Shown here piece by piece: positions 3,552-26,461 of a DNA stretch of 26,461 nt. Both the position numbers and the translations under genes were made by a program. Under the pieces are notes generated by a model. The model ran no database searches. It was not told the origin of the DNA and was given only the letters and a program-made list of their open reading frames with translations. The DNA is taken from positions 1 through 26,461 of IMG/VR virus record IMGVR_UViG_3300040781_000242. One strand, given 5' to 3'. This DNA comes from a virus. How positions within the stretch are numbered: the stretch's first letter is position 1; each line of letters begins with the position of its first letter.

Positions 3552-3559
3552 TATTTATC
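3552..3559 (-). promoter_or_regulatory. Late promoter octamer GATAAATA abutting gp13 start
   Basis: On the minus strand GATAAATA is followed by five bases (ACGGC) and then the gp13-like ATG. It overlaps the TGA stop of the upstream gene. One base differs from the T4 consensus TATAAATA. The same octamer-N5-ATG layout is found at the gp14-like and gp15-like genes. Confidence 0.65.
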
Positions 3560-4740: not shown

Positions 4741-5442
4741 TTATCCCAAGTAGCCATCACGATTGATCTGACCGCCCGTGCTGCGCAGCGTGTAAGTCAT
4801 GCCGCGCATAATTTTACTGTGTCGCCCACTCTTGAGGTCAACAGTGGTACCGCATGTTGCGCGGTACGTGAACACTTTGCTGGGCTTACTAGGCTTACGA
4901 GGCGCAGTCTGCATCTGGTGACAACGGCTAGCCTGTTGACCAATCAGCATCATGATGCCTTTCCAGTATCTACCATGACCCTTGCCGTGGAGCTTGTAAT
5001 GCTGGACCGCAATAATGTGCGCTGCTTCATGACCAGGCGTGTCATCAATAAAAGTTTGCCCGTTCAAGTCCAACAATGTCTGGCTCAGGGTGATGACAGG
5101 CTTCTCTACGCAGTAGTGGCGTCCCCAGGACCACTTGGCAGTGCCAGCAGTTCTGGTCATCTTGCTGCTGAACTCCACAACAGGTCTTTCAAACTCACAA
5201 CCAAAATGTTCTTCAGCAATAGTAAACGCTTGTTCGATTTTGTCAAGACATTTTTGCTGCGCATCAGTATAGCCACGCCGCACACTAGCGGCCGCAGTCT
5301 TTACTTTGGGAACCACAGCCCCGTCAATAAAGCCTTTCTTGGCCAGGGCTGCTATCATGCCCTTGTCAATTCCAGCAGTATTGCCTTGTGAACGGATCTT
5401 GTCCAGTGCATCTTGCTGACGAGAAGTGAGGGATTGTGACAT
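4741..5442 (-). CDS. SprT-like zinc metallopeptidase domain protein
   Basis: The 233-residue protein contains the gluzincin motif HEAAH at residues 138-142, with a third probable ligand at His156 in GKGHGRYWKGIM. This arrangement (HExxH, then GHG..WK.LM) is typical of the SprT/Spartan family, whose eukaryotic members degrade DNA-protein crosslinks. A Cys/His-containing stretch follows (SRCHQ). The N-terminal 55 residues are helical and charged and may be a separate binding region. The role in a phage is unknown; removal of host proteins from DNA is one possibility. It has its own sigma70-type promoter and a GGAG ribosome site, and it is followed closely by the 388-residue gene. The family call is good; the function is inferred. 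Confidence 0.8.
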   Translation of the reverse strand: MSQSLTSRQQDALDKIRSQGNTAGIDKGMIAALAKKGFIDGAVVPKVKTAAASVRRGYTDAQQKCLDKIEQAFTIAEEHFGCEFERPVVEFSSKMTRTAGTAKWSWGRHYCVEKPVITLSQTLLDLNGQTFIDDTPGHEAAHIIAVQHYKLHGKGHGRYWKGIMMLIGQQASRCHQMQTAPRKPSKPSKVFTYRATCGTTVDLKSGRHSKIMRGMTYTLRSTGGQINRDGYLG

Positions 5443-5474
5443 TTTCTTGCTCCGCTTTATTAACCTACATACTT

Positions 5475-5502
5475 AGTCTAGCAAAACGACCGGATATGTC
5501 AA
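5475..5502 (-). promoter_or_regulatory. Sigma70-type (early) promoter for SprT-like gene
   Basis: On the minus strand a consensus -35 TTGACA (5497-5502) is followed by a 16-nt spacer ending in TGC and a -10-like TAGACT (5475-5480). The spacer CGGTCGTT core and the leader (TAGGTTAA..AAGCGGAGCA) closely match a second promoter at 6638-6665, which supports both. TAGACT is a weak -10, partly compensated by the TG extension. Confidence 0.68.
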
Positions 5503-5533
5503 CTTTCAGTACTTATGTAAGTTGTTGATATTA

Positions 5534-5554
5534 TTGGAGTTTTGAAAAAAGTTG
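5534..5554 (-). repeat. 21-bp conserved element upstream of early promoter, copy 1
   Basis: This 21-bp block differs at one base from the block at 6687-6707. On the minus strand it reads as a T-tract element (AACTTTTTTCA) lying 31 bp upstream of the -35 box. It could be an activator site, an AT-rich UP-like element, or the U-tract end of a terminator for the gene that ends at 5561. Confidence 0.6.
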
Positions 5555-5560
5555 AATCTT

Positions 5561-6127
5561 TTATGCGTTCTGGAGCTTTTTGAACCAGGCTTCCATGCGC
5601 TCTTCGGCTTCCATCTCCAGTCGATAAGCTCGCTCTTCCTGCTTGCGCTCTTGCTCTGCAAAGCGGCTCTTTTGCTCACGCCACTCTGCATCCAGACTAC
5701 GCTGTGTCACGCTCTTAGCGAGCGTCTGAGCCTCTTCTGCTTCTTTCTGGGCACCTACACAAGCCCTATCAACAGGTGCTACAGCCACTCGAGCAGGTTT
5801 GCTAGCCTTGCGCTGCGCTTCTGCATCCAGCTGGCGCCAGTATTTGGCGATGCGCATGGTGCCCTTGGCGTTGGGCTTCATCCAGCGCTCAATCTGCCAG
5901 TCCAGCATGCTGCGATGCTTCAGGAAGTATTTGGCGCTGATACACCCGCTGTGAGCGTCTCCGCCTGTAAATCCCACCCCGTTATCCACGTTGGTGACAC
6001 TAGCAGCTTTTTCGCCCTCAGTCTGGTTGTTGAAGATCACCACCAGTGCCCGGCCAATAAACTCAGCACGTTTCTCAGGGTTATTGGTCAGGAAGTTTTG
6101 GATGTACTCTTTTGTCACAATAGCCAT
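5561..6127 (-). CDS. Unknown 188-aa phage protein with charged helical C-terminus
   Basis: Not assigned to a function. The N-terminal part (NNQTEGEKAASVTN, NGVGFTGGDAHSG, then AKGTMRIAKYWRQL) resembles small conserved hypothetical proteins of phages that carry a pattern of Q-T-x-x-E-K followed by N-G-x-G-F and K-Y-W. From about residue 125 to the end it is very rich in Glu, Arg, Lys, Gln and Ala with few prolines, so a long helix or coiled coil is likely. The start ATG overlaps the stop of the preceding 65-residue gene in a TAATG arrangement, which implies translational coupling. It lies in the block driven by the promoter at 6638-6665. Confidence 0.72.
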   Translation of the reverse strand: MAIVTKEYIQNFLTNNPEKRAEFIGRALVVIFNNQTEGEKAASVTNVDNGVGFTGGDAHSGCISAKYFLKHRSMLDWQIERWMKPNAKGTMRIAKYWRQLDAEAQRKASKPARVAVAPVDRACVGAQKEAEEAQTLAKSVTQRSLDAEWREQKSRFAEQERKQEERAYRLEMEAEERMEAWFKKLQNA

Positions 6128-6324
6128 TAGATTTTGCCCTCTTGTGTGACTGCCGCCATGTTTTGTAACGCCACGGTGGCTTCCATGCCAGCATCATCAA
6201 GTTCATTATTTTGAATATAACAAAGTGCTTCTTCCGCTATATTCAACTTGGCTTTCAGCGTATCTATCTGTTCTTTAGCGGCCATCAATTCTGTAACTTC
6301 TTCGTCGCTTAACCAGATACTCAT
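6127..6324 (-). CDS. Small unknown protein, 65 aa
   Basis: A short helical, acidic protein (MSIWLSDEEVTELMAAKEQ...) with heptad-like spacing of hydrophobics, compatible with a small coiled coil. The ATG is preceded by AAGGAG at good spacing. Its stop overlaps the start of the 188-residue gene (TAATG), and the 90-residue gene ends just 10 nt upstream, so it is the middle gene of a three-gene unit. No family recognised. Confidence 0.7.
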   Translation of the reverse strand: MSIWLSDEEVTELMAAKEQIDTLKAKLNIAEEALCYIQNNELDDAGMEATVALQNMAAVTQEGKI

Positions 6325-6334
6325 CGTTATCTCC

Positions 6335-6607
6335 TTACGCTATATGTGCTGTTTCGGGGATGATGCTGAACTGGACGTAGCCATATTCTTCCGCCACTGC
6401 CCACTCCAGGGCTCGAATCTTGCCCTCAAACTGGCTGTATACAATGCTGTCCACGTCCCTGCAGAACGCCTCGCACTCGTTAGCGCCAAAGCCTGTAACA
6501 GTAACCACATCATCAATGTCGTCTACCTTGAGGTTCCCGTTACGCTTGACGCTGGGGAACTCCCTGGAAATCGCTCTTGCTACTTGGTGTGTTATCAACT
6601 GGGCCAT
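6335..6607 (-). CDS. Small unknown protein, 90 aa
   Basis: First gene behind an early-type promoter. The 90-residue acidic protein (MAQLITHQVARAISREFPSV...) shows a predicted helix, a beta segment (LKVDDIDDVVTVTGFG) and a C-terminal helix-strand. No motif is recognised. A GGAG ribosome site lies a few bases before the ATG, within a leader almost identical to that of the SprT-like gene. Small early genes of this kind in T4-like phages often encode host-takeover or regulatory factors, but nothing in the sequence shows that here. Confidence 0.68.
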   Translation of the reverse strand: MAQLITHQVARAISREFPSVKRNGNLKVDDIDDVVTVTGFGANECEAFCRDVDSIVYSQFEGKIRALEWAVAEEYGYVQFSIIPETAHIA

Positions 6608-6637
6608 TTCTGCTCCGCTTCTTTAACCTACACACAT

Positions 6638-6665
6638 ATGATAGCATAACGACCAGAAGTGTCAA
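6638..6665 (-). promoter_or_regulatory. Sigma70-type (early) promoter for the small-gene unit
   Basis: On the minus strand TTGACA (6660-6665), a 16-nt spacer ending in TGC, then TATCAT (6638-6643, five of six matches to TATAAT). The TGC before the -10 makes an extended -10. Transcription would begin about 24 nt before the ATG of the 90-residue gene. It is a near copy of the promoter at 5475-5502. Confidence 0.78.
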
Positions 6666-6686
6666 GCCTGTAAGTGCTTGATTTAG

Positions 6687-6707
6687 TTGGAGTTATGAAA
6701 AAAGTTG
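6687..6707 (-). repeat. 21-bp conserved element upstream of early promoter, copy 2
   Basis: Twenty of 21 bases match the element at 5534-5554. Here it lies 21 bp upstream of the -35 box, exactly 10 bp closer than in copy 1. Its T6 tract also falls just downstream of the hairpin at 6709-6730, so it may double as the terminator tail of the lipoprotein gene. Confidence 0.6.
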
Positions 6708-6730
6708 GGCGGGCTATGTAGAAAGCCCGC
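6698..6730 (-). terminator. Possible rho-independent terminator of the lipoprotein gene
   Basis: A perfect 7-bp stem GCGGGCT/AGCCCGC (6709-6715 with 6724-6730) with an 8-nt loop lies after the stop of the gene ending at 6743. On the minus strand it is followed by CCAAC and then TTTTTT (6698-6703). The 5-nt gap before the T tract weakens the call. Confidence 0.55.
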
Positions 6731-6742
6731 TATGTAGAGGTG

Positions 6743-7498
6743 TTACGGGCTAATTATGACCCCGCGAGAGATTAAACTATCAATTATCTGCTGATAGTCG
6801 TTAGAGATTTCGGAAAAGTTTGCCTGACCGTATTCATAGCCTTGCGTTGCTGTTTCGACTACTGCACCCAAGCCTGTGGCATAAAGGTCTTCTGCGAGCA
6901 CAAAACCGTCACGACTCACGTCAGATACAGCATCAAGCCCTTGACTGGCGATCCCAGTTGTCGCATCCAAACCAGCTTGATTGGATACCGCTAGTGCATC
7001 AAACCCTGCTTGTCCAAGATCAGCTATAGCGCCCACACTTACTGCGGTAGCCGCTGTGCTTTCAGCATATTGCTGCCCCAAGCCCAATACCATGGATTGG
7101 TTCCCCAGCTGGATGTTCTCCTGGCTTTGGAAGTTGGCCATTTGTACTCTGGCTGCATTATCGCTAGCATTCTTGGCTACATCTGCCTGTAGTGCAATAC
7201 CAGCTACTGCCGCTACTGGTGCCGCTAGAATACGTCCCCAAGTTAACGACTCGGACTCTACATACTGTGGAGCCACAATACGATCTTGCGTCATGGCTAT
7301 GGCCATGGTTGCTACTGCTGAGGTAGTGGGATCTTGACTTGCTGCCATTCCAGACAGTGCCAAGTATCGAGCTTCTTGCTGTCTGGCATTTGCCTCGGCA
7401 GCTTCGCCTATTGCTCTGTAGTAATTTTCTTGCGATGTGTTTGCACAGCCTGTCACAAACAGCAAAGCAAGGATACTGATTACCAATTTAATTTTCAT
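6743..7498 (-). CDS. Outer-membrane-type lipoprotein with six 11-residue repeats
   Basis: The 251-residue protein has a lipoprotein signal peptide: basic MKIK, hydrophobic core, and lipobox VTGC with the modified Cys at residue 18. Asn at +2 rather than Asp suggests the outer membrane. Residues 162-228 contain six consecutive 11-residue units with Gly followed by a large hydrophobic residue at 165/166, 176/177, 187/188, 198/199, 209/210 and 220/221. This spacing fits a hendecad helix or coiled coil. A mildly hydrophobic stretch lies near residues 90-104. The ATG has a good AGGAG. The gene is divergent from the gp14-like gene and near the lysozyme, so an envelope role in lysis (o-spanin-like) or superinfection exclusion is conceivable. 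There is no C-terminal membrane anchor, which argues against a u-spanin. Confidence 0.8.
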   Translation of the reverse strand: MKIKLVISILALLFVTGCANTSQENYYRAIGEAAEANARQQEARYLALSGMAASQDPTTSAVATMAIAMTQDRIVAPQYVESESLTWGRILAAPVAAVAGIALQADVAKNASDNAARVQMANFQSQENIQLGNQSMVLGLGQQYAESTAATAVSVGAIADLGQAGFDALAVSNQAGLDATTGIASQGLDAVSDVSRDGFVLAEDLYATGLGAVVETATQGYEYGQANFSEISNDYQQIIDSLISRGVIISP

Positions 7499-7533: not shown

Positions 7534-7541
7534 GATAAATA
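7534..7541 (+). promoter_or_regulatory. Late promoter octamer GATAAATA abutting gp14 start
   Basis: GATAAATA followed by CTGGC and the ATG at 7547. It lies in the 48-nt gap between the divergent lipoprotein gene and the gp14-like gene. No Shine-Dalgarno is visible before this ATG. Same geometry as at 3552 and 10205. Confidence 0.65.
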
Positions 7542-7546
7542 CTGGC

Positions 7547-8620
7547 ATGCCACGTTTAAGTCTCTGGAATCCCATTAAATCAAACGATTTTTCGTTTATC
7601 GATCGCATTGTAGGCGAGCACATGTACGCCGGAGGCACGGGTGTCTTGGTTCATAGATACCTGGGTATCCAAGGTGGTATCAACTCACCTGACGGCGACT
7701 TAACGCAACCTACCAGTACACCAAGTGACTCCGAAGTATTTATCCAGGATCTACTATTTTTGGAAAACAGAGACCGCAAATACGATAAAACCATATACGA
7801 GTTGCGTGGGCAATACAATATCCAGGACGCAGATGCATATGATCTCACCCAGTTTGGTCTGTTCCTGCAAAGCGATACAGTTTTCATGAACTTTCACATC
7901 GAGAGCATGGTGGAAAGCTTGGGTCGAAAGCTTATGCCTGGTGACGTTCTAGAGCTACCGCACTTGCGCGACGACTTGCTGCTGGGCAGCGAGGATGCCA
8001 TCAACCGCTTCTACGTGGTACAGGAAGGTGCTCGACCTAGCGAAGGATATGATCCCATGTGGTGGCCACACCTGTGGCGTGTCAAGCTAGGACCCATCAG
8101 CGACAGCCAAGAGTACAGAGACATCTTGGGTACTGGTGAGAATGAGGACGATCTCAGAAACTTCGTGAGCCAGTATGAGAAAGACATTCAGATTAACGAT
8201 GCTGTGTTAGCGCAAGCTGAAAAAGACGTACAGTTTGATCCGCAATATCGCAAGAACGCACACCTGTACTTTGATCCCACAGTGCCAGACAAACCCACCT
8301 TGGGTTTTGACTACATGGGCGGCGGTGCTACACCCCCAAATGGTGAAATGGTATCAGGTAGTGGCGCAAGCTTCCCCACAGAGAATGTCCACGAAGGAGA
8401 TTATTTTTTGAGGACTGATTTTATGCCCAACAGGCTGTTCCAGAAGCAAGGCAACTTGTGGAAACGTATATCAGATGATAACCGCAATGCTTGGGCAGCC
8501 GCAGACAAAGTACTCACCAGTTTCATCAACAACGACGACACTACAGAATACACAGACGGCGAAATTGCTCCAGTCAAGACTAACTTGAGCAAGGTTGTGC
8601 GTCCCAAGACGGATGACTGA
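7547..8620 (+). CDS. 14: Neck protein, gp14-like
   Basis: Head-tail neck protein. The 357-residue product starts MPRLSLWNPIKSNDF. It carries an internal region (FLENRDRKYDKTIYELRG, QFGLFLQSDT, PGDVLELPHLRDD, FYVVQEG, WWPHLWRVK, DSQEYRDILG) that I recognise from gp14-type neck proteins of marine T4-like phages. T4 gp14 is shorter (about 256 residues). The extra C-terminal third includes a decoration-like module, GDYFLRTDFMPNRLF followed by a W-containing strand. The reading frame is open further upstream, to 7334, but that part overlaps the lipoprotein gene antisense. The ATG at 7547 fits the family N-terminus and the GATAAATA octamer. The gene is on the plus strand, opposite to gp13 and gp18. 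The next gene follows after 2 nt. Confidence 0.78.
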   Translation: MPRLSLWNPIKSNDFSFIDRIVGEHMYAGGTGVLVHRYLGIQGGINSPDGDLTQPTSTPSDSEVFIQDLLFLENRDRKYDKTIYELRGQYNIQDADAYDLTQFGLFLQSDTVFMNFHIESMVESLGRKLMPGDVLELPHLRDDLLLGSEDAINRFYVVQEGARPSEGYDPMWWPHLWRVKLGPISDSQEYRDILGTGENEDDLRNFVSQYEKDIQINDAVLAQAEKDVQFDPQYRKNAHLYFDPTVPDKPTLGFDYMGGGATPPNGEMVSGSGASFPTENVHEGDYFLRTDFMPNRLFQKQGNLWKRISDDNRNAWAAADKVLTSFINNDDTTEYTDGEIAPVKTNLSKVVRPKTDD

Positions 8621-9702: not shown

Positions 9703-10209
9703 ATGTTTAAGAAATGTTTTGAATCGCCACTATTTAGAACTCTGTTTGCCAGAAAAGGCACCAAGATGGATTTAGACAGACTCAGAGATCAATTGATATC
9801 AGATGAGGGTGTTGTATACGCTGTGTACCTGGACCACTTGGGTTATCCCACCATGGGCGTGGGGCATCTAATCACCCCAGATGATCCTGAGCATGGCTGG
9901 CCTGTCGGTACCGAAGTTTCATACCAGCGTGTTTGGAATGCCTTTGAGCAAGATGTACATTTCAAGATTGATGAATCCAGAAGGTTGTACTCAAACTTTG
10001 ACACCTGGCCCGGCGAGGTTCAAGAAATCATGGTGAACATGATGTTCAACATGGGGCGCAGTAGATTATCTGGATTCAAACGCATGCATGCGGCGTTGGA
10101 GAAAAATGACTGGCGGGAGGCTGCACGTGAAGGCAGAGACAGCCGTTGGTATCGCCAGGTCACCAATCGTGCTGAACGCCTGATGACTCGCTTGGAAAAC
10201 GTGGGATAA
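9703..10209 (+). CDS. e: Endolysin, T4-type lysozyme (GH24)
   Basis: Muramidase that cleaves peptidoglycan at lysis. The T4 lysozyme catalytic triad is conserved with exact spacing: Glu35 (SDEG), Asp44 (YLDHLG) and Thr50 (PTMGVGH), matching Glu11, Asp20 and Thr26 of T4. The C-terminal part (MVNMMFNMGRSRLSGFKRM, then DSRWYRQVTNRAERLM) parallels the T4 enzyme. The start at 9703 has a GGAG about 9 nt upstream and adds 21 basic residues; an internal ATG at 9766 would give a T4-like N-terminus but has a poorer ribosome site. The extension is not hydrophobic enough for a signal or SAR anchor, so a holin elsewhere is expected. A lysozyme domain in a baseplate protein is excluded by the small size. 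Confidence 0.93.
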   Translation: MFKKCFESPLFRTLFARKGTKMDLDRLRDQLISDEGVVYAVYLDHLGYPTMGVGHLITPDDPEHGWPVGTEVSYQRVWNAFEQDVHFKIDESRRLYSNFDTWPGEVQEIMVNMMFNMGRSRLSGFKRMHAALEKNDWREAAREGRDSRWYRQVTNRAERLMTRLENVG

Positions 10210-10212
10210 ATA
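10205..10212 (+). promoter_or_regulatory. Late promoter octamer GATAAATA abutting gp15 start
   Basis: GATAAATA overlaps the TAA stop of lysozyme and is followed by CAAGC and the gp15-like ATG at 10218. No Shine-Dalgarno is present between octamer and ATG. Third example of the octamer-N5-ATG layout in this window. Confidence 0.65.
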
Positions 10213-10217
10213 CAAGC

Positions 10218-17529: not shown

Positions 17530-20500
17530 TTACATCAGGGTGACTATGACTTCAATAACGGTGGACCCCGCAACGTCTGTAGATTCAATTGCCTTGCCCA
17601 GAATACGTCCTGGTGCAGCAAAGTTATTGACCGCAGCGTGACCAGCAATACCTGAACTCACCAATATATCGCCCTGAGTTACTGGCCCGATTACTTTGCA
17701 TGGTACGCGGCCTGCTAGTGCCAAGTATGGGTGCGTTTCATCATCACCAGCCTTCTTGTTCATCATGAACGCAGGTTCTGTGGATATAACCCCAGCAAGT
17801 CTATGGTCGTTTGCGATGGTACTCTGGGTTATTTCGGCATTGCCCCCAAATACCACCACTGTGCCTTTTTCAACTGGTGCATCAATTTCATAACGCTCCG
17901 CCAAGTCAGCAAAGGTTGCTGTTGTGGCTTCACCATCAAACAGATTGGCATGCACAGTGTCCCAGTTAAGCGTGGCTGATCCAATATCTTGAGTATTATT
18001 TGCAGCTGGTAACAAGTCACCACCAGCATTGACTCTCAATAGACTGGTTGACTCAAGCGTGGTTCCGTTATAACGCAACGTCTGAGTATCTGTTCCGCCC
18101 GGGTTGGGCCCTTCGACACCCTGAATACCTTGACGTCCTTGAGTGCCTTGTGTACCAGTTGTGCCTTGTGTACCAGTTGTACCTTGTGTACCAGTTGTAC
18201 CTTGACTACCAGTTGTTCCCTGAATACCTTGTACGCCTTGCTGGCCAGTTGTGCCTTGGCGACCTTGGGTTCCTTGACTACCAGTCGTACCCTGTCGTCC
18301 TTGTGTGCCCTGGCTGCCAGTTGTACCTTGACTACCAGTTGTTCCCTGGATACCTTGTACGCCTTGTGTACCGGTTGTACCTTGGCGACCTTGGGTTCCT
18401 TGACTACCAGTCGTACCCTGTCGTCCTTGTGTTCCCTGGCTGCCAGTTGTGCCCTGTTGTCCAGTTGTGCCCTGGATGCCCTGAACACCTTGTTGTCCAG
18501 TTGTACCTTGGCTACCAGTTGTGCCTTGTCGTCCCTGTGTACCTTGTGTGCCTTGTGTACCAGTTGTGCCCTGGATGCCCTGAACACCTTGTTGTCCAGT
18601 TGTACCTTGTTGTCCAGTTGTACCTTGTTGTCCAGTCGTACCTTGTTGTCCAGTCGTACCTTGAATACCTTGAACACCTTGTAGACCTTGTTGACCGAAT
18701 GTTCCCTGAGTACCTTGTGTACCAGTTGTACCTTGTTGTCCAGTTGTGCCTTGTTGTCCAGTCGTACCTTGTGTACCTTGCTGTCCAGTTGTACCTTGTT
18801 GTCCAGTCGCTCCCTGGATACCTTGAACACCCTGTTGTCCAGTCGTGCCTTGCTGTCCAGTTGTACCTTGTTGTCCTGTTGTACCTTGTGTACCTTGTTG
18901 GCCAGTTGTACCTTGTTGGCCAGTTGTACCTTGTGTACCTTGTTGACCAGTTGTACCTTGTTGGCCAGTTGTACCCTGGATGCCTTGTACACCCTGTAGT
19001 CCACCACCACCGTTAAATCCGCTGATGCCCTGGATACCTTGCGTTCCCTGTGTGCCTTGGCTTGCTTGTGTTCCTTGCAGACCTTGAGTACCCAAAATAC
19101 CTTGCAGGCCCTGTCCACCAAATATACCTTGGATACCTTGAGTACCTTGAGTACCTTGAGTACCTTGTTGACCGGTGTTGCCTTGGGTTCCTTGGGTTCC
19201 TTGCTGGCCAGTAGTGCCTTGGAGTCCTTGAATACCTTGTGAACCCAAAGTACCATCAATACCCTGAACGCCTTGAACTCCTTGTTGGCCAGTTGTTCCT
19301 TGCGCGCCTTGTAGACCCTGGGTTCCTTGGGTTCCTTGTTGACCGGTGTTGCCTTGGGTTCCTTGGGTTCCTTGCTGGCCAGTAGTGCCTTGGAGTCCTT
19401 GAATACCTTGTGAACCCAATGTACCATCAATACCCTGAACGCCTTGAACGCCCTGTGTACCTTGTGTACCTTGGGTTCCTTGTGTGCCTTGCGTTCCCTG
19501 TGTGCCTTGCGTTCCTTGCTGCCCAGTTGTGCCTTGCGTTCCTTGGAGTCCTTGGATACCTTGTGAACCCAAAGTACCATCAATACCCTGAACGCCTTGT
19601 TGGCCTGTTGTTCCTTGTGACGCTTGGGTGCCTTGAAGGCCTTGGATACCTTGAACACCTTGTATACCATCAGTACCTTGTGTTCCCGATATTCCCTGGA
19701 TACCTGGATCGCCTTCTGTTCCCTGGGTTCCTTGTGCACCCTGGGTTCCATCAAGACCGATTGTTCCCTGGCTGCCTATAATACCCTGGCGGCCTTGTGT
19801 TCCTTGTTGTCCGAACGTGCCCTGAGTACCGGTTTGCCCTTGGATACCTTGACTAGCCTGCGTTCCTTGTAGTCCCTGTGTTCCCTGAATGCCTTGAACA
19901 CCTTGTGTTCCCTGAGTTCCTTGACGACCTTGTAGGCCTTGTGTGCCCTGGATGCCCTGAGTACCTTGACGACCTTGAGTACCTTGAGTACCTTGCTGGC
20001 CCAGAGTACCCTGACTACCAGTTGTGCCTTGTGTACCAGTCTCGCCTTGTATTCCCTGAGTGCCCTGGGTACCTTGTGTGCCCTGCTGGCCCAGAGTACC
20101 CTGGCTACCAGTTGTGCCTTGAGGACCAGTATCACCTTGAATGCCTTGCTGGCCCTGGATACCTTGTTGACCCTGGGTTCCTTGAGTGCCTTGAGTACCT
20201 TGTTGGCCAGTTGTGCCTTGTAGTCCCTGGAAACCAGTAGAACCCTGAAGTCCTTGTTGACCAGTTGTGCCTTGTCGTCCTTGAGCTCCTTGTGTACCTT
20301 GTTGTCCGAATGTACCTTGTGTTCCCTGAATACCTTGCGTACCTTGTGTACCCTGGCGTCCTTGTGTGCCTTGTGCACCAGTGTCGCCCTGAATACCTTG
20401 TGTACCAGTATTTCCCTGAAGTCCTTGAGTGCCTTGTGTTCCTTGCAGGCCCTGTGTGCCTTGTTGGCCTGTTGTACCCTGACGACCTTGACTTCCCTGA

Positions 20501-21864
20501 GTGCCTTGTAATCCCTGAGTGCCTTGTAATCCCTGAGTACCTTGCAGACCTTGGATGCCCTGTCGTCCTTGGCGTCCTTGCAGGCCCTGTGTGCCTTGCA
20601 GACCTTGACGACCCTGTGATCCCTGGGTGCCTTGTGTGCCCTGCTGGCCCTGTGATCCTTGTAGTCCTTGTGTTCCTTGCAGTCCTTGAGTACCTTGTGT
20701 TCCCTGAGTACCTTGAGTACCTTGCTGTCCAGTTGTACCCTGACGACCTTGAGTGCCTTGTGTTCCCTGCAAGCCTTGTGTACCAGTATCTCCTTGGATA
20801 CCTTGTTGCCCTTGAGTGCCTTGCAGGCCTTGTGTGCCCTGGCTTCCTTGTGTACCAGTCTCACCTTGGATTCCCTGAGTACCTTGTGTTCCCTGAGTAC
20901 CTTGTGTACCTTGGAGTCCTTGCTGACCCTGCAGACCTTGTTGACCAAATGTTCCCTGAGTACCTTGAGTACCTTGTTGTCCAGTTGTTCCCTGTCGTCC
21001 TTGGCTGCCCTGAGTACCTTGGATACCCTGTGCTGCCTGTGTTCCCTGACGTCCTTGTGTGCCTTGGGTACCTTGAATTCCTTGTGTACCTTGTAGACCT
21101 TGTTGACCAAATGTTCCCTGAGTACCTTGAGTACCTTGTTGTCCTGTTGTTCCCTGTCGTCCTTGGCTGCCTTGAATACCGGTATCGCCCTGTATGCCCT
21201 GGGTGCCTTGCAGACCCTGGGTACCTTGTTGTCCGTTTGTTCCTTGAGTACCAGTGTTACCCTGGGTTCCTTGAGTACCTTGTGTCCCCTGGCTTCCTTG
21301 TAGACCTTGCGTTCCTTGTATGCCCTGGATGCCTTGCACACCTTGAGTGCCCTGGATGCCTTGAATGCCCTGGGTACCTTGTGTACCTTGACGACCCTGT
21401 GTACCTTGCTGGCCTTGTATTCCTTGTGACGCTTGAGTTCCTTGAAGTCCTTGTGTTCCTTGGATACCCTGCAGGCCTTGTATTCCCTGGTTTCCTTGTG
21501 TGCCTTGGCTACCGGTTGTACCTTGGCGTCCTTGGCTACCCTGGATGCCTTGGTTACCTTGTATGCCCACAGAGCCTTGAGTACCAACTGTTCCTTGTCG
21601 TCCTTGTGTGCCTTGGGTTCCTTGTGTACCTTGAGTGCCTTGTAGTCCTTGGATACCCTGAATGCCCTGGGTTCCTTGTGGGCCTTGGAGACCCTGCTGT
21701 CCTTGTACGCCTTGCTGACCTTGAATGCCTTGAGTGCCTTGTGGGCCCTGAGGACCAATCAGACCCTGCACACCCTGTCCGCCGCCACCCTGGATTCCCT
21801 GGATACCTTGAATACCCTGGTTACCCACGTAGGTGTTATTTAGAAAGTCACTTAAATTAGACAT
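17530..21864 (-). CDS. Giant collagen-like tail fibre protein (Gly-X-Gln repeats)
   Basis: The 1444-residue protein has a short N-terminus (MSNLSDFLNNTYVG), then about 410 Gly-X-Y triplets to residue 1252, then a 192-residue globular C-terminus. In most triplets Y is Gln and X is Thr, Ile, Leu, Val or Arg; Pro and Lys are almost absent. The C-terminus (NNTQDIGSATLNWDTVHANLF, FADLAERYEIDAPVEKGTVVVFGG, GRVPCKVIGPVTQGDILV) is of a kind I recognise from tail fibre and structural proteins of marine T4-like phages. The repeats should form a long trimeric stalk. The ATG lies 23 nt after a GATAAATA octamer, with only a weak ribosome site. One triplet-phase break occurs near residue 30 (GGGGQGV). Confidence 0.85.
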   Translation of the reverse strand: MSNLSDFLNNTYVGNQGIQGIQGIQGGGGQGVQGLIGPQGPQGTQGIQGQQGVQGQQGLQGPQGTQGIQGIQGLQGTQGTQGTQGTQGRQGTVGTQGSVGIQGNQGIQGSQGRQGTTGSQGTQGNQGIQGLQGIQGTQGLQGTQASQGIQGQQGTQGRQGTQGTQGIQGIQGTQGVQGIQGIQGTQGLQGSQGTQGTQGTQGNTGTQGTNGQQGTQGLQGTQGIQGDTGIQGSQGRQGTTGQQGTQGTQGTFGQQGLQGTQGIQGTQGTQGRQGTQAAQGIQGTQGSQGRQGTTGQQGTQGTQGTFGQQGLQGQQGLQGTQGTQGTQGTQGIQGETGTQGSQGTQGLQGTQGQQGIQGDTGTQGLQGTQGTQGRQGTTGQQGTQGTQGTQGTQGLQGTQGLQGSQGQQGTQGTQGSQGRQGLQGTQGLQGRQGRQGIQGLQGTQGLQGTQGLQGTQGSQGRQGTTGQQGTQGLQGTQGTQGLQGNTGTQGIQGDTGAQGTQGRQGTQGTQGIQGTQGTFGQQGTQGAQGRQGTTGQQGLQGSTGFQGLQGTTGQQGTQGTQGTQGQQGIQGQQGIQGDTGPQGTTGSQGTLGQQGTQGTQGTQGIQGETGTQGTTGSQGTLGQQGTQGTQGRQGTQGIQGTQGLQGRQGTQGTQGVQGIQGTQGLQGTQASQGIQGQTGTQGTFGQQGTQGRQGIIGSQGTIGLDGTQGAQGTQGTEGDPGIQGISGTQGTDGIQGVQGIQGLQGTQASQGTTGQQGVQGIDGTLGSQGIQGLQGTQGTTGQQGTQGTQGTQGTQGTQGTQGTQGVQGVQGIDGTLGSQGIQGLQGTTGQQGTQGTQGNTGQQGTQGTQGLQGAQGTTGQQGVQGVQGIDGTLGSQGIQGLQGTTGQQGTQGTQGNTGQQGTQGTQGTQGIQGIFGGQGLQGILGTQGLQGTQASQGTQGTQGIQGISGFNGGGGLQGVQGIQGTTGQQGTTGQQGTQGTTGQQGTTGQQGTQGTTGQQGTTGQQGTTGQQGVQGIQGATGQQGTTGQQGTQGTTGQQGTTGQQGTTGTQGTQGTFGQQGLQGVQGIQGTTGQQGTTGQQGTTGQQGTTGQQGVQGIQGTTGTQGTQGTQGRQGTTGSQGTTGQQGVQGIQGTTGQQGTTGSQGTQGRQGTTGSQGTQGRQGTTGTQGVQGIQGTTGSQGTTGSQGTQGRQGTTGSQGTQGRQGTTGQQGVQGIQGTTGSQGTTGTQGTTGTQGTTGTQGTQGRQGIQGVEGPNPGGTDTQTLRYNGTTLESTSLLRVNAGGDLLPAANNTQDIGSATLNWDTVHANLFDGEATTATFADLAERYEIDAPVEKGTVVVFGGNAEITQSTIANDHRLAGVISTEPAFMMNKKAGDDETHPYLALAGRVPCKVIGPVTQGDILVSSGIAGHAAVNNFAAPGRILGKAIESTDVAGSTVIEVIVTLM
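18110..21825 (-). repeat. 9-bp-period Gly-X-Y coding repeat of fibre 1
   Basis: About 3.7 kb of degenerate 9-bp units (plus strand CCTTGnGTn-like), encoding Gly-X-Gln. The repeat has few stop codons in any frame, so long spurious reading frames appear on both strands. It contains longer internal duplications, for example 19163-19278 against 19334-19449. Confidence 0.9.
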
Positions 21865-21887: not shown

Positions 21888-21895
21888 TATTTATC
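21888..21895 (-). promoter_or_regulatory. Late promoter octamer GATAAATA before fibre 1
   Basis: On the minus strand GATAAATA lies in the 40-nt gap between the 164-residue gene and the fibre 1 ATG, 23 nt upstream of the ATG. This gives the fibre its own late transcript with a normal-length leader. Confidence 0.6.
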
Positions 21896-22399: not shown

Positions 22400-22962
22400 C
22401 CGTAAAGTGCCGTCCAGTCTCGTTGTTGGCTTGCTTCTGCGTATCCTTCTAAAGGAAAGGAAAACAAGAAGCCAGGTATATAGTTTGCATCCACTGTGGT
22501 CTGAACTCCTGCTGGCAGGGTGTTACCAAACAAGTACTTACACATGGTTGCCGTGCGCGAATTTTCCGCGCAAATGTTCAAAATTTCCATTTGTACATCT
22601 GCGTTGCATCTGATGTACAATTCATGATGTGCGATTGCCCAACTAAATGTGGCTGCCATTCTGGGGAATGGCTCCCGTAGTTCCAAACATTCGCTAACGA
22701 TAATAGTGTTGCTGGGCACATCGGCATTGTCCATCATGACTTCACACACAGTGAGCCAGTGGCAAGGAGGAGCAATATTGGATATAAGTCCTTCAGCGTT
22801 GGCTGTCTGATATAAATCCATCATGACATTCCATGCGCCATCATCCATGCCCCACTTGTGTCCTGGAGTATAGCCGGTATCATATGACAAGTACTCAGCC
22901 TTGTGATCCAAGTTCATGGCTTCACCGGCTATCTCATACCAATTTAAACTTATGTTAGCCAT
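22396..22962 (-). CDS. Unknown 188-aa probable virion protein
   Basis: The protein ([21 protein letters not shown]...) contains several Cys and aromatic residues and no recognised domain. The frame is open 7 codons further upstream, but the ATG at 22960-22962 overlaps the stop of fibre 2 as TAATG, so that start is preferred. It is translationally coupled at both ends (TAATG in, ATGA out), implying production in step with fibre 2. A fibre-tip or assembly role is plausible by context only. Confidence 0.7.
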   Translation of the reverse strand: MANISLNWYEIAGEAMNLDHKAEYLSYDTGYTPGHKWGMDDGAWNVMMDLYQTANAEGLISNIAPPCHWLTVCEVMMDNADVPSNTIIVSECLELREPFPRMAATFSWAIAHHELYIRCNADVQMEILNICAENSRTATMCKYLFGNTLPAGVQTTVDANYIPGFLFSFPLEGYAEASQQRDWTALYG

Positions 22963-25900
22963 TATACGGAAGTGTCTACCCAAATGTCGCCAACCGATGG
23001 CCCTGGTGGCGGTGTTGAGCTCACTGTTACCAGACTGTTAAGTCCATCAGTACCTTGGATACCCTGGATGCCTTGTATGCTGACCCCTTGAAGTCCTTGG
23101 TTACCAAATATACCTTGCAGGCCGGTGCTTCCCTGGATGCCTTGCACGTTAGCGTCTGTGCCTTGTGTACCGGTGATTCCTTGGATACCTTGGCGTCCTT
23201 GTGTACCCTGTATGCCTTGTTGACCGAAAGTACCTTGTAGTCCGTCATTACCACCTGTTCCCTGGGTACCTTGTCGTCCCTGAATACCCTGTTGCCCAAG
23301 TAATCCTTGTGTGCCTTGCGTACCAGTTTGACCTTGTGTACCGGTTGTGCCCTGACTACCAGTTGTGCCTTGAAGTCCTTGCACGCCTTGGGAACCAGTT
23401 GTACCTTGACGCCCTTGCGTTCCTTGTGAACCCACTGCGCCTTGAACACCGTCCTCACCAGCAGTACCCTGAATACCCAGTACACCTTGTAGACCGCGTG
23501 AGCCTTGTGCACCTTGTGATCCAGCGATACCACTAGTACCTTGTGATCCAGTATTACCAGTTGTGCCTTGGAGTCCTTGTGAACCTTGTGTACCAGTTGT
23601 GCCTTGTGTACCGTTTGTACCGCCCGTGCCTTGCAGGCCCTGTTGTCCAGTAGTGCCTTGACGTCCTTGTGTTCCTTGGCTGCCCTGTGTGCCAGTTGTA
23701 CCCTGTGATCCATCATTACCAGCAGTACCTTGAGAGCCTGTTGCACCCAAGATACCCTGTGTGCCTTGAATACCTTGTTGTCCGAACGTGCCTTGTGTTC
23801 CTTGACGGCCTTGTGTTCCTTGCAGTCCATTAGCGCCCTGGACGCCAAATGTTCCTTGGATGCCTTGACTACCAGTCTGGCCCTGAGCGCCTTGCAAACC
23901 CTGATTACCCTGTAGTCCAGTAGTTCCCTGAATACCTTGAGAACCCTGTGTGCCAGTTGTACCTTGTAATCCATCGTTACCAGCAGTACCTTGCGACCCA
24001 AGCGTTCCTTGAATACCCTGAGTGCCCTGGATACCTTGTGTACCAGTTGTTCCTTGTGTACCCTGGCGGCCTTGTGTTCCCTGGAGTCCTTGTAATCCCT
24101 GGGCACCTTGTATACCATCAGTTCCTTGTAGGCCCTGAATTCCCTGGCGGCCTTGTGTTCCCTGGGTACCTTGGGTTCCTTGTTGGCCGTCAGTACCCTG
24201 CGCACCAATAGTACCAGTTTGTCCTTGTGAACCCGTTGTTCCCTGAGTACCCTGACTACCAATTATTCCCTGTGTACCTTGAATGCCTTGCTGGCCCGTT
24301 GTTCCCTGGCGTCCTTGTGTGCCTTGGATACCTTGTGTACCTTGCTGTCCAAACGTTCCTTGCGTACCAGTGCTACCTTGAGTACCCTGGTTACCAGTTG
24401 TGCCTTGCGAGCCAGTAGTTCCTTGGATACCCTGGGTGCCTTGGATGCCTTGTGTTCCTTGACGTCCTTGCGTACCCTGGTTACCAGTTGTGCCTTGTGT
24501 ACCTTGTGTACCTTGCAGGCCCTGAATTCCTTGAGTACCTTGGGTGCCTTGGATACCCTGGAGTCCTTGTGTGCCTTGGCTTCCTTGTAAGCCGTCTGTA
24601 CCTTGTGTACCAGTGTTGCCTTGGGTGCCTTGAGTACCTTGACGTCCTTGTGCACCCTGGCTGCCTTGTATGCCCTGCACACCTTGTTGACCAAATGTAC
24701 CTTGAGTTCCTTGGGTACCCTGACTACCAGTTGTTCCTTGGCGTCCCTGGGTTCCTTGTATTCCTTGCTGACCAAAGTTACCCTGAATGCCTTGTGATCC
24801 AGTTGTGCCCTGTCGTCCTTGGCTTCCTTGGGTGCCTTGTGTTCCTTGCGTACCCTGTGTGCCTTGCTGGCCCTGAAGACCTTGCTGGCCTTGGATACCC
24901 TGGATACCCTGAGTACCTTGAGTTCCTTGGGTACCTTGAGTACCTTGAGTACCTTGAGTTCCTTGTATGCCCTGGGTGCCTTGAGTGCCTTGTTGGCCTT
25001 GTATGCCTTGGATACCTTGTCCAGTTATACCCTGAATACCCTGTTGGCCAAAGTTACCTTGAACACCTTGTATACCAGCACCATCTGCGCCTTGTATTCC
25101 TTGCAATCCTAGACGACCAACGTTAGCCGTAACCTGCCAGGTGCTACCATCCCATACAAAACGCACCTCAGTATCCTGTACATCAAGTACAAGCTCATGT
25201 GTTTGGCTTTCAATTGTATTGCCGTTAGGCGAGACGTTGACACTGACATTACTAAAATCGTCACCATCATAAATCCATATTGCATCACCAATTACTGGAG
25301 CGGATGGCAAATCAATCGTAAAAGGTGTACCCTCAGGATCAGCAATAATAGCATCTTGTGGGTTAGCAGTGTATGCACTTGTTATGCGGATATAACGGAA
25401 TGTAATACCTTGCAGACCTTGTATGCCCTGGATACCTTGCAGACCCTGTGTTCCTTGAACGCCTTGCAGACCTTGTATGCCCTGGATACCTTGAGATCCA
25501 CCAATTCCTTGTGCCCCGGTTATTCCTTGCTGTCCGGTTATTCCTTGAGTTCCTTGGATACCCTGAACACCTTGTGTTCCTTGAACGCCTTGAATACCTT
25601 GAACGCCTTGAGTACCCTGGATGCCTTGAACACCTTGAATGCCTTGAGTACCCTGGATGCCTTGAACACCTTGAACGCCTTGCTGTCCAGTTATACCCTG
25701 GATGCCTTGCAGGCCCTGTGTGCCTTGAATTCCCTGTACACCCTGGTTGCCTTGAGTTCCTTGGACACCCTGGATTCCCTGAATGCCTTGAGTTCCCTGT
25801 ACGCCTTGAATGCCTTGAACGCCTTGTATTCCCTGTACGCCCTGCGTTCCTTGAACGCCTTGTATTCCCTGTACGCCCTGCGCTCCTTGAACGCCTTGTA

Positions 25901-26461
25901 TTCCCTGTACGCCCTGCGTTCCTTGAACGCCTTGAATGCCTTGAACGCCTTGCGTGCCTTGAACGCCTTGCGTTCCTTGAACGCCTTGCGTTCCTTGAAC
26001 GCCTTGAATGCCTTGAACGCCTTGCGTTCCTTGAACGCCTTGAACACCTTGAACGCCTTGTGTGCCCTGTGTTCCTTGCAGACCCTGTGTTCCTTGCAAT
26101 CCCTGGGTGCCCTGTGTTCCTTGCAATCCCTGGATACCTTGGGTACCTTGAGTTCCTTGAACACCTTGAATTCCTTGAGTGCCCTGGATACCCTGTGTAC
26201 CTTGAACACCTTGAATTCCTTGGATGCCTTGCGTTCCTTGAACACCTTGAATACCCTGGATGCCTTGCAGTCCCTGTGTTCCTTGAACACCTTGAATACC
26301 CTGGATGCCTTGGATACCTTGCGTTCCCTGCAAGCCCTGAGTTCCCTGGAGTCCTTGTATTCCTTGGATTCCTTGGATACCTTGTTGGCCCTGAATGCCT
26401 TGGATGCCTTGCAGGCCCTGTGTTCCTTGGATTCCCTGTACGCCTTGGATACCTTGTTGGC
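22962..26461 (-). CDS. Second giant collagen-like fibre protein (5' end outside window)
   Basis: At least 1166 codons, open to the right window edge, so the N-terminus is missing. It is made of Gly-X-Gln triplets with a single non-collagenous insert of about 95-100 residues (25114-25407; [21 protein letters not shown], then [12 protein letters not shown]). The edge-proximal stretch favours Val and Ile at X (GVQGIQG), while the rest favours Thr, Arg and Ser. The C-terminus is short and non-repetitive ([19 protein letters not shown]), lacking the large head seen in fibre 1. Apparent starts inside the repeat, such as the TTG near 26333, are not real starts. The stop overlaps the next gene's ATG (TAATG). 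Confidence 0.83.
25114..25407 (-). other. Non-collagenous globular module within fibre 2
   Basis: About 98 codons without Gly-X-Y periodicity interrupt the repeat. The segment reads as a small beta domain with alternating hydrophobics ([35 protein letters not shown]). It could be a trimerisation or carbohydrate-binding insert that registers the helix on either side. Confidence 0.7.
25815..25922 (-). repeat. Three tandem 36-bp units in fibre 2
   Basis: Units at 25815-25850, 25851-25886 and 25887-25922 are identical apart from one base, and encode four Gly-X-Gln triplets each. They indicate recent tandem duplication in the fibre stalk. Confidence 0.8.

Follow-up and report, generated by a model that had tools for sequence, protein, structure and literature searches.

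Minus-strand phage promoters with a predicted IHF-type site directly upstream, set one helical turn apart in two copies and recurring in environmental phage contigs

IHF sites upstream of phage promoters are already known, for example at lambda pL. Known sites of this kind, including that of the Mu early promoter, lie further upstream, at about -86 to -89, and have been described one promoter at a time. The promoters described here resemble these IHF-assisted promoters in being phage promoters for the host polymerase with an upstream IHF-type site and A/T-rich DNA, whereas here the core lies at about -46, -57 or -68, adjoining the polymerase, and the arrangement is found in many phages, with several copies in a genome. 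The PeSL elements of Arbiol et al. are reportedly mobile regulatory cassettes of T4-type phages in which a stem-loop is joined to an early promoter. The present modules are comparable in that putative early promoters recur before small genes unrelated to each other, with a stem-loop before copy A, but differ in that no terminator-like hairpin lies upstream of copy B. A passage of PMC4177764 gives Arbiol et al. 2010 as its reference for PeSL cassettes. The early promoters of T4 have a UP/-35/TGn/-10 architecture (PMC2988021) and share with the present modules a near-consensus -35, an extended -10, upstream A/T-rich DNA and conserved bases outside the hexamers; however, their description in that paper includes neither an IHF-type core nor two positions one turn apart. 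The gltBDF promoter of E. coli is IHF-assisted and tolerates a 10-bp but not a 5-bp insertion (PMC1784095). At that promoter it is Lrp that is phased, and IHF is required as well.

The window, that is the whole stretch of DNA analysed, is the 26,461-base IMG/VR record IMGVR_UViG_3300040781_000242, positions 1 to 26,461. A 64-kb sister contig, IMGVR_UViG_3300040801_001103, carries it at positions 37,547-64,007 with 3 differences. The gene set is that of a T4-like tailed phage (tail sheath stabiliser, baseplate lysozyme, head-tail adaptor Ad2, deoxynucleoside monophosphate kinase), and among cultured phages the sheath stabiliser is best matched, at 36-40% identity, by jumbo phages including Phosso, Paride and PA5oct. 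No direct nucleotide relatives of the promoter region were found among named phages, and the arrangement was not found in the first 50 kb (early region) of the cultured relative PA5oct. The IHF-like block alone is weakly common to Lacusarx, AAT-1/PaMx28 and ASO78B, where no such promoter follows it. Two very long genes of the window (17530-21864 and 22962-26333, minus strand) are built of 9-base collagen-like repeats.

The first-pass annotation of this DNA had described two minus-strand promoters with TTGACA, a 16-nt spacer, a TGC-extended -10 and a common leader, and the coordinates bear this out (Table 1). Both have TTGACA and extended TATAAT-like hexamers within the 15-18 nt spacing of sigma70 promoters, with TG before the -10, and they rank first and second among promoter-like sites in the first 13.5 kb. 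The leader pattern, allowing up to 3 mismatches, occurs at only 2 places in the window, which are the two promoter copies (0.02 expected), and tested as an RNA structure it gave no stable fold. A T4 MotA middle promoter was ruled out: the MotA box (TGCTT, centred at -30 and replacing the -35) is absent and a perfect TTGACA stands in its place. The hairpin just upstream of copy A lies 3' of gene 6743-7498, and its T run begins 5 nt past the stem. The 21-bp upstream element reported in the annotation is present, 21 nt from TTGACA in copy A and 31 nt in copy B, but its extent was set too short. The block common to both copies extends over about 39 bp (5516-5554 against 6669-6707, 85% identical), includes ..ATCAAnnACTTACA, and ends in ..AATCAAGCACTTACA in copy A and ..TATCAACAACTTACA in copy B. 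The 10-bp length difference sits wholly between this block and the -35, the core and TTGACA being 5 nt apart in copy A and 15 nt apart in copy B.

Table 1. Features of the two promoter copies and their surroundings in the window. The predicted start (+1) is assumed to lie 7 nt after the -10.
Feature	Position	Strand	Remarks
Copy A, 21-bp A/T-rich upstream element CAACTTTTTTCATAACTCCAA	6707-6687	minus	putative 5' arm of IHF-like site
Copy A, IHF consensus core AATCAAGCACTTA	6683-6671	minus	exact match to WATCAANNNNTTR; centre about -46 from predicted start
Copy A, sigma70-type promoter	6638..6665	minus	TTGACA 6665-6660, 16-nt spacer, TATCAT 6643-6638, TGC extension; 11/12 matches
Copy A, conserved leader TAGGTTAAAGAAGCGGAGCA	6630-6611	minus	GGAG ribosome-binding site; ATG at 6607
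Copy B, 21-bp A/T-rich upstream element CAACTTTTTTCAAAACTCCAA	5554-5534	minus	
Copy B, IHF consensus core TATCAACAACTTA	5530-5518	minus	exact match to WATCAANNNNTTR; centre about -56 from predicted start
Copy B, sigma70-type promoter	5475..5502	minus	TTGACA 5502-5497, 16-nt spacer, TAGACT 5480-5475, TGC extension; 10/12 matches
Copy B, conserved leader	5467-5448	minus	GGAG ribosome-binding site; ATG at 5442
Terminator-like hairpin	6709..6730	minus	7 pairs, 8-nt loop; -14.3 kcal/mol, z -4.7
Three-gene unit behind promoter A	5561..6607	minus	90, 65, 188 aa
SprT-like metallopeptidase, first gene behind promoter B	4741..5442	minus	233 aa; PF10263, E 1.5e-14

The 13-bp IHF consensus is WATCAANNNNTTR, and IHF sites of 30-35 bp combine an A/T-rich 5' part with a 3' core (PMC7581858, PMC10380432). 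Judged by its sequence, the 21-mer is the predicted A/T-rich 5' arm of such a longer, IHF-like site. An arm of this kind is seen both in the 21-mer itself and, over 53 sites, at the A/T positions -13 to -10. These positions and -5 to -1, counted from the core, played no part in the selection; they are 75-98% A/T with a C/T-rich gap separating the two runs, a pattern that fits the 5' arm of IHF sites. The annotation had proposed a protein-binding site for phage early gene control, and the part of that proposal concerning a binding site in helical phase that is used by phages stands. The recognition core, however, which the annotation had not pointed out, lies downstream of the 21-mer and matches the consensus of host IHF, so that a phage early protein is not needed as the binder, and the interpretation as a whole is therefore partly supported. 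Three further exact consensus matches in the window (8805, 16478, 17413) lie inside genes, without such a promoter.

IHF is typical of Pseudomonadota and is not known from Bacillota. Not counting the seed, 14 of 149 Pseudomonadota genomes contain the extended motif AATAAAATCAAnnACTTA (control 0); in Bacillota the motif is not enriched, with 1 of 149 genomes beyond the seed (control 2). No recognisable gene for a phage-encoded IHF/HU (DNABII) protein was found in 20 of these phage contigs, and the protein would thus be the host's. Taken together, we infer that the protein reading the upstream site is most likely host IHF. The genome of a Betaproteobacteria MAG (L112, VGIF01; e.g. L162-L181) holds 226 exact copies of AATAAAATCAAnnACTTA, with 0 for the backwards control; the genome is GC-rich and the copies sit in its A/T-rich islands, some of them running right up to an ATG, and the motif is there a dispersed IHF-like intergenic repeat.

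An element confined to this locus would have spoken against a regulatory role, but the same block with its promoter is present in other phage contigs. A search with the leader pattern alone, blind to the upstream DNA, returned 18 viral stretches in which a TTGAC-type -35 precedes the leader. Nine of the 12 independent promoters selected in this way have an IHF consensus within 120 bp upstream, in one orientation throughout, against a background of 0.016 per 120 bp (about 1.6%). The remaining 3 have no site, and in 2 promoters the site is 52 and 63 nt away, outside the main peaks of distance. The combined pattern (core, 0-20 nt, TTGACA, GCTA) matched 77 viral stretches, while with the motif read backwards there were 0 viral matches. 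A set with one bacterial genome per species (257 billion bases) gave only 6 matches, 1 of which falls in a genome that has the motif as a dispersed repeat. Among 171 other promoters of the same DNA, the consensus was found forward at 13 and reversed at 4; about half of the 13 forward sites are again at 4-8, 15 and 27, and 5 of the 13 belong to leader-type promoters. Several contigs hold 2 to 4 copies of the arrangement, and in the sister contig a further copy of the promoter, the third, is found about 23 kb off. The recurrence in dozens of environmental phage contigs suggests that many phages may borrow IHF to start their first genes. In the third copy (L021:499, minus strand, and upstream; 20497-20652 of the sister contig) the IHF-type core is 63 nt away with a hairpin between, and a second core in inverted orientation lies 24 bp upstream of the first. 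In four other stretches (L043, L048, L128, L129) a single promoter is preceded by a tandem pair of IHF-type sites separated by about three to four turns. Four more (L028, L036, L037, L038) have the same leader and no IHF core, with a GGTCAACC ... GGTTGACC inverted repeat around the upstream region. Exact 20-mer matches in L003, L004 and L006 are not followed by a promoter and were discounted as chance or coding matches.

The annotation had also held that a shift of one turn keeps the element on the same face of the helix, and distances from core to -35 across many phage contigs agree with this. Over 38-59 sequence clusters they concentrate at 2-7, 13-18, 24-29 and about 38 nt, peaks that are about 11 bp apart, and the interval of 8-12 nt is almost empty. 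The Rayleigh test at 11 bp gave p ~1e-7 for 52 clusters and 3e-5 for a stricter set of 38; with coarse clustering (13 clusters), in which near and far versions merge, the phasing signal is gone, as expected. The best-fit period is 11-11.5, not 10.5. Because the distances are phased in many clusters, the one-turn shift appears to be a general rule rather than a local accident. In five stretches with the site one turn further out (L007, L026, L033, L061, L088), inverted repeats flank the -35 with arms that differ but match, as in AAACCCCCAGAA cg TTGAC TTTCTGGGGGTTT of L033, and the mean stem score around the -35 is 4.86 versus 3.12 (sd 0.31) in permutations. As a cause of the 10-bp shift this repeat was rejected; it is real in some phages, but neither the near class nor the window copies have it.

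Each module is probably a strong sigma70 phage promoter with a host IHF site directly upstream, fixed in orientation and helix face. Host IHF would bind the core, centred near -46 in copy A and -56 in copy B, and bend the DNA sharply next to the polymerase. The bend would return the upstream DNA, including the A/T-rich arm, towards RNA polymerase, where the arm might act like a UP element on the alpha C-terminal domains or IHF might touch the polymerase itself. Promoters assisted in this way could outcompete host promoters at the start of infection. Since the geometry is preserved when the site moves by one turn, the near (3 nt) and the far (13-15 nt) forms would be interchangeable. Against this reading stand the best-fit period, the intragenic consensus matches of the window, the leader-type promoters that lack the site or have it outside the main peaks, and the lack of the arrangement in the first 50 kb of PA5oct.

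The alternative that survives best, although we regard it as unlikely, is that a different activator of host or phage origin reads AATCAAnnACTTACA, which is then merely IHF-like, with the same phased activation through polymerase contact. The core is tighter than the classical consensus, NNNN being nearly always nnAC and CA following TTA, and the pattern is largely restricted to viral contigs. The nnAC bias persists in the leader-selected promoters, with AC in most of those that bear an IHF site, so another protein could be the reader. However, two leader-selected sites, AATCAAGGGTTTA (L024) and AATCAATAAGTTG (L032), break nnAC and still fit the WATCAANNNNTTR consensus, and the match to that consensus is exact, with an A/T-rich 5' arm at the right distance. 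The motif is also present without the promoter in proteobacterial genomes, and it occurs in unrelated phages such as Lacusarx and AAT-1. It seems similarly doubtful that environmental phages have a standard early-promoter architecture in which a dedicated non-IHF DNA-bending activator reads AATCAAnnACTTACA on one helix face at the whole-turn positions -46/-57/-68/-79. Less probable still, and in our view very unlikely, is that the A/T-rich block needs no further protein and is recognised directly by the alpha C-terminal domains, as a UP element or as intrinsically curved DNA, comparable to the T4 early promoters. A UP element has a fixed place immediately upstream of the -35, whereas the core can lie 24-38 nt away. 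The A/T-rich tracts are in phase and T4 early promoters are UP/-35/TGn/-10 promoters (PMC2988021), but the core is a fixed, oriented 13-15-mer with C positions, not A/T alone. A simple local duplication, with one copy derived from the other, an incidental 10-bp indel and a functionless upstream block, is highly improbable and already largely refuted by recurrence and phasing: the intergenic stretch of about 100 bp is alike throughout (80-85%), but the downstream genes of copies A and B that were compared are unlike, with no paralogy for the comparisons made, the block is found again in other phages with both spacings, and a third copy stands far off in the sister contig.

A literature search for papers printing the motif found none that were relevant, and as far as could be found the standardised, phased IHF-type arrangement across unrelated environmental phages is new. 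The novelty for specialists is that the phased arrangement is widespread. If host IHF is indeed the reader, this protein, known mainly from lambda integration and single promoters, would be a general host factor for the first transcripts of environmental phages, and infection would be predicted to depend on IHF in hosts still to be studied. The motif would also serve to locate early promoters in uncultured phage contigs, and the natural spacing variants would test how a phased DNA bend helps the polymerase.

The promoters are inferred to be early because they are of sigma70 type like the T4 early promoters and late-type GATAAATA sites lie elsewhere in the window, and also from phage biology in general. 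GATAAATA is close to the T4 late element TATAAATA and occurs 6 times in the window versus 0.33 expected. Sites of the form GATAAATA/ATAAATAC are at 2043-2050, 2110-2117, 3552-3559, 7534-7544, 7736-7744, 10205-10213 and 21888-21895, and several of them immediately precede virion genes, as T4 late promoters do.
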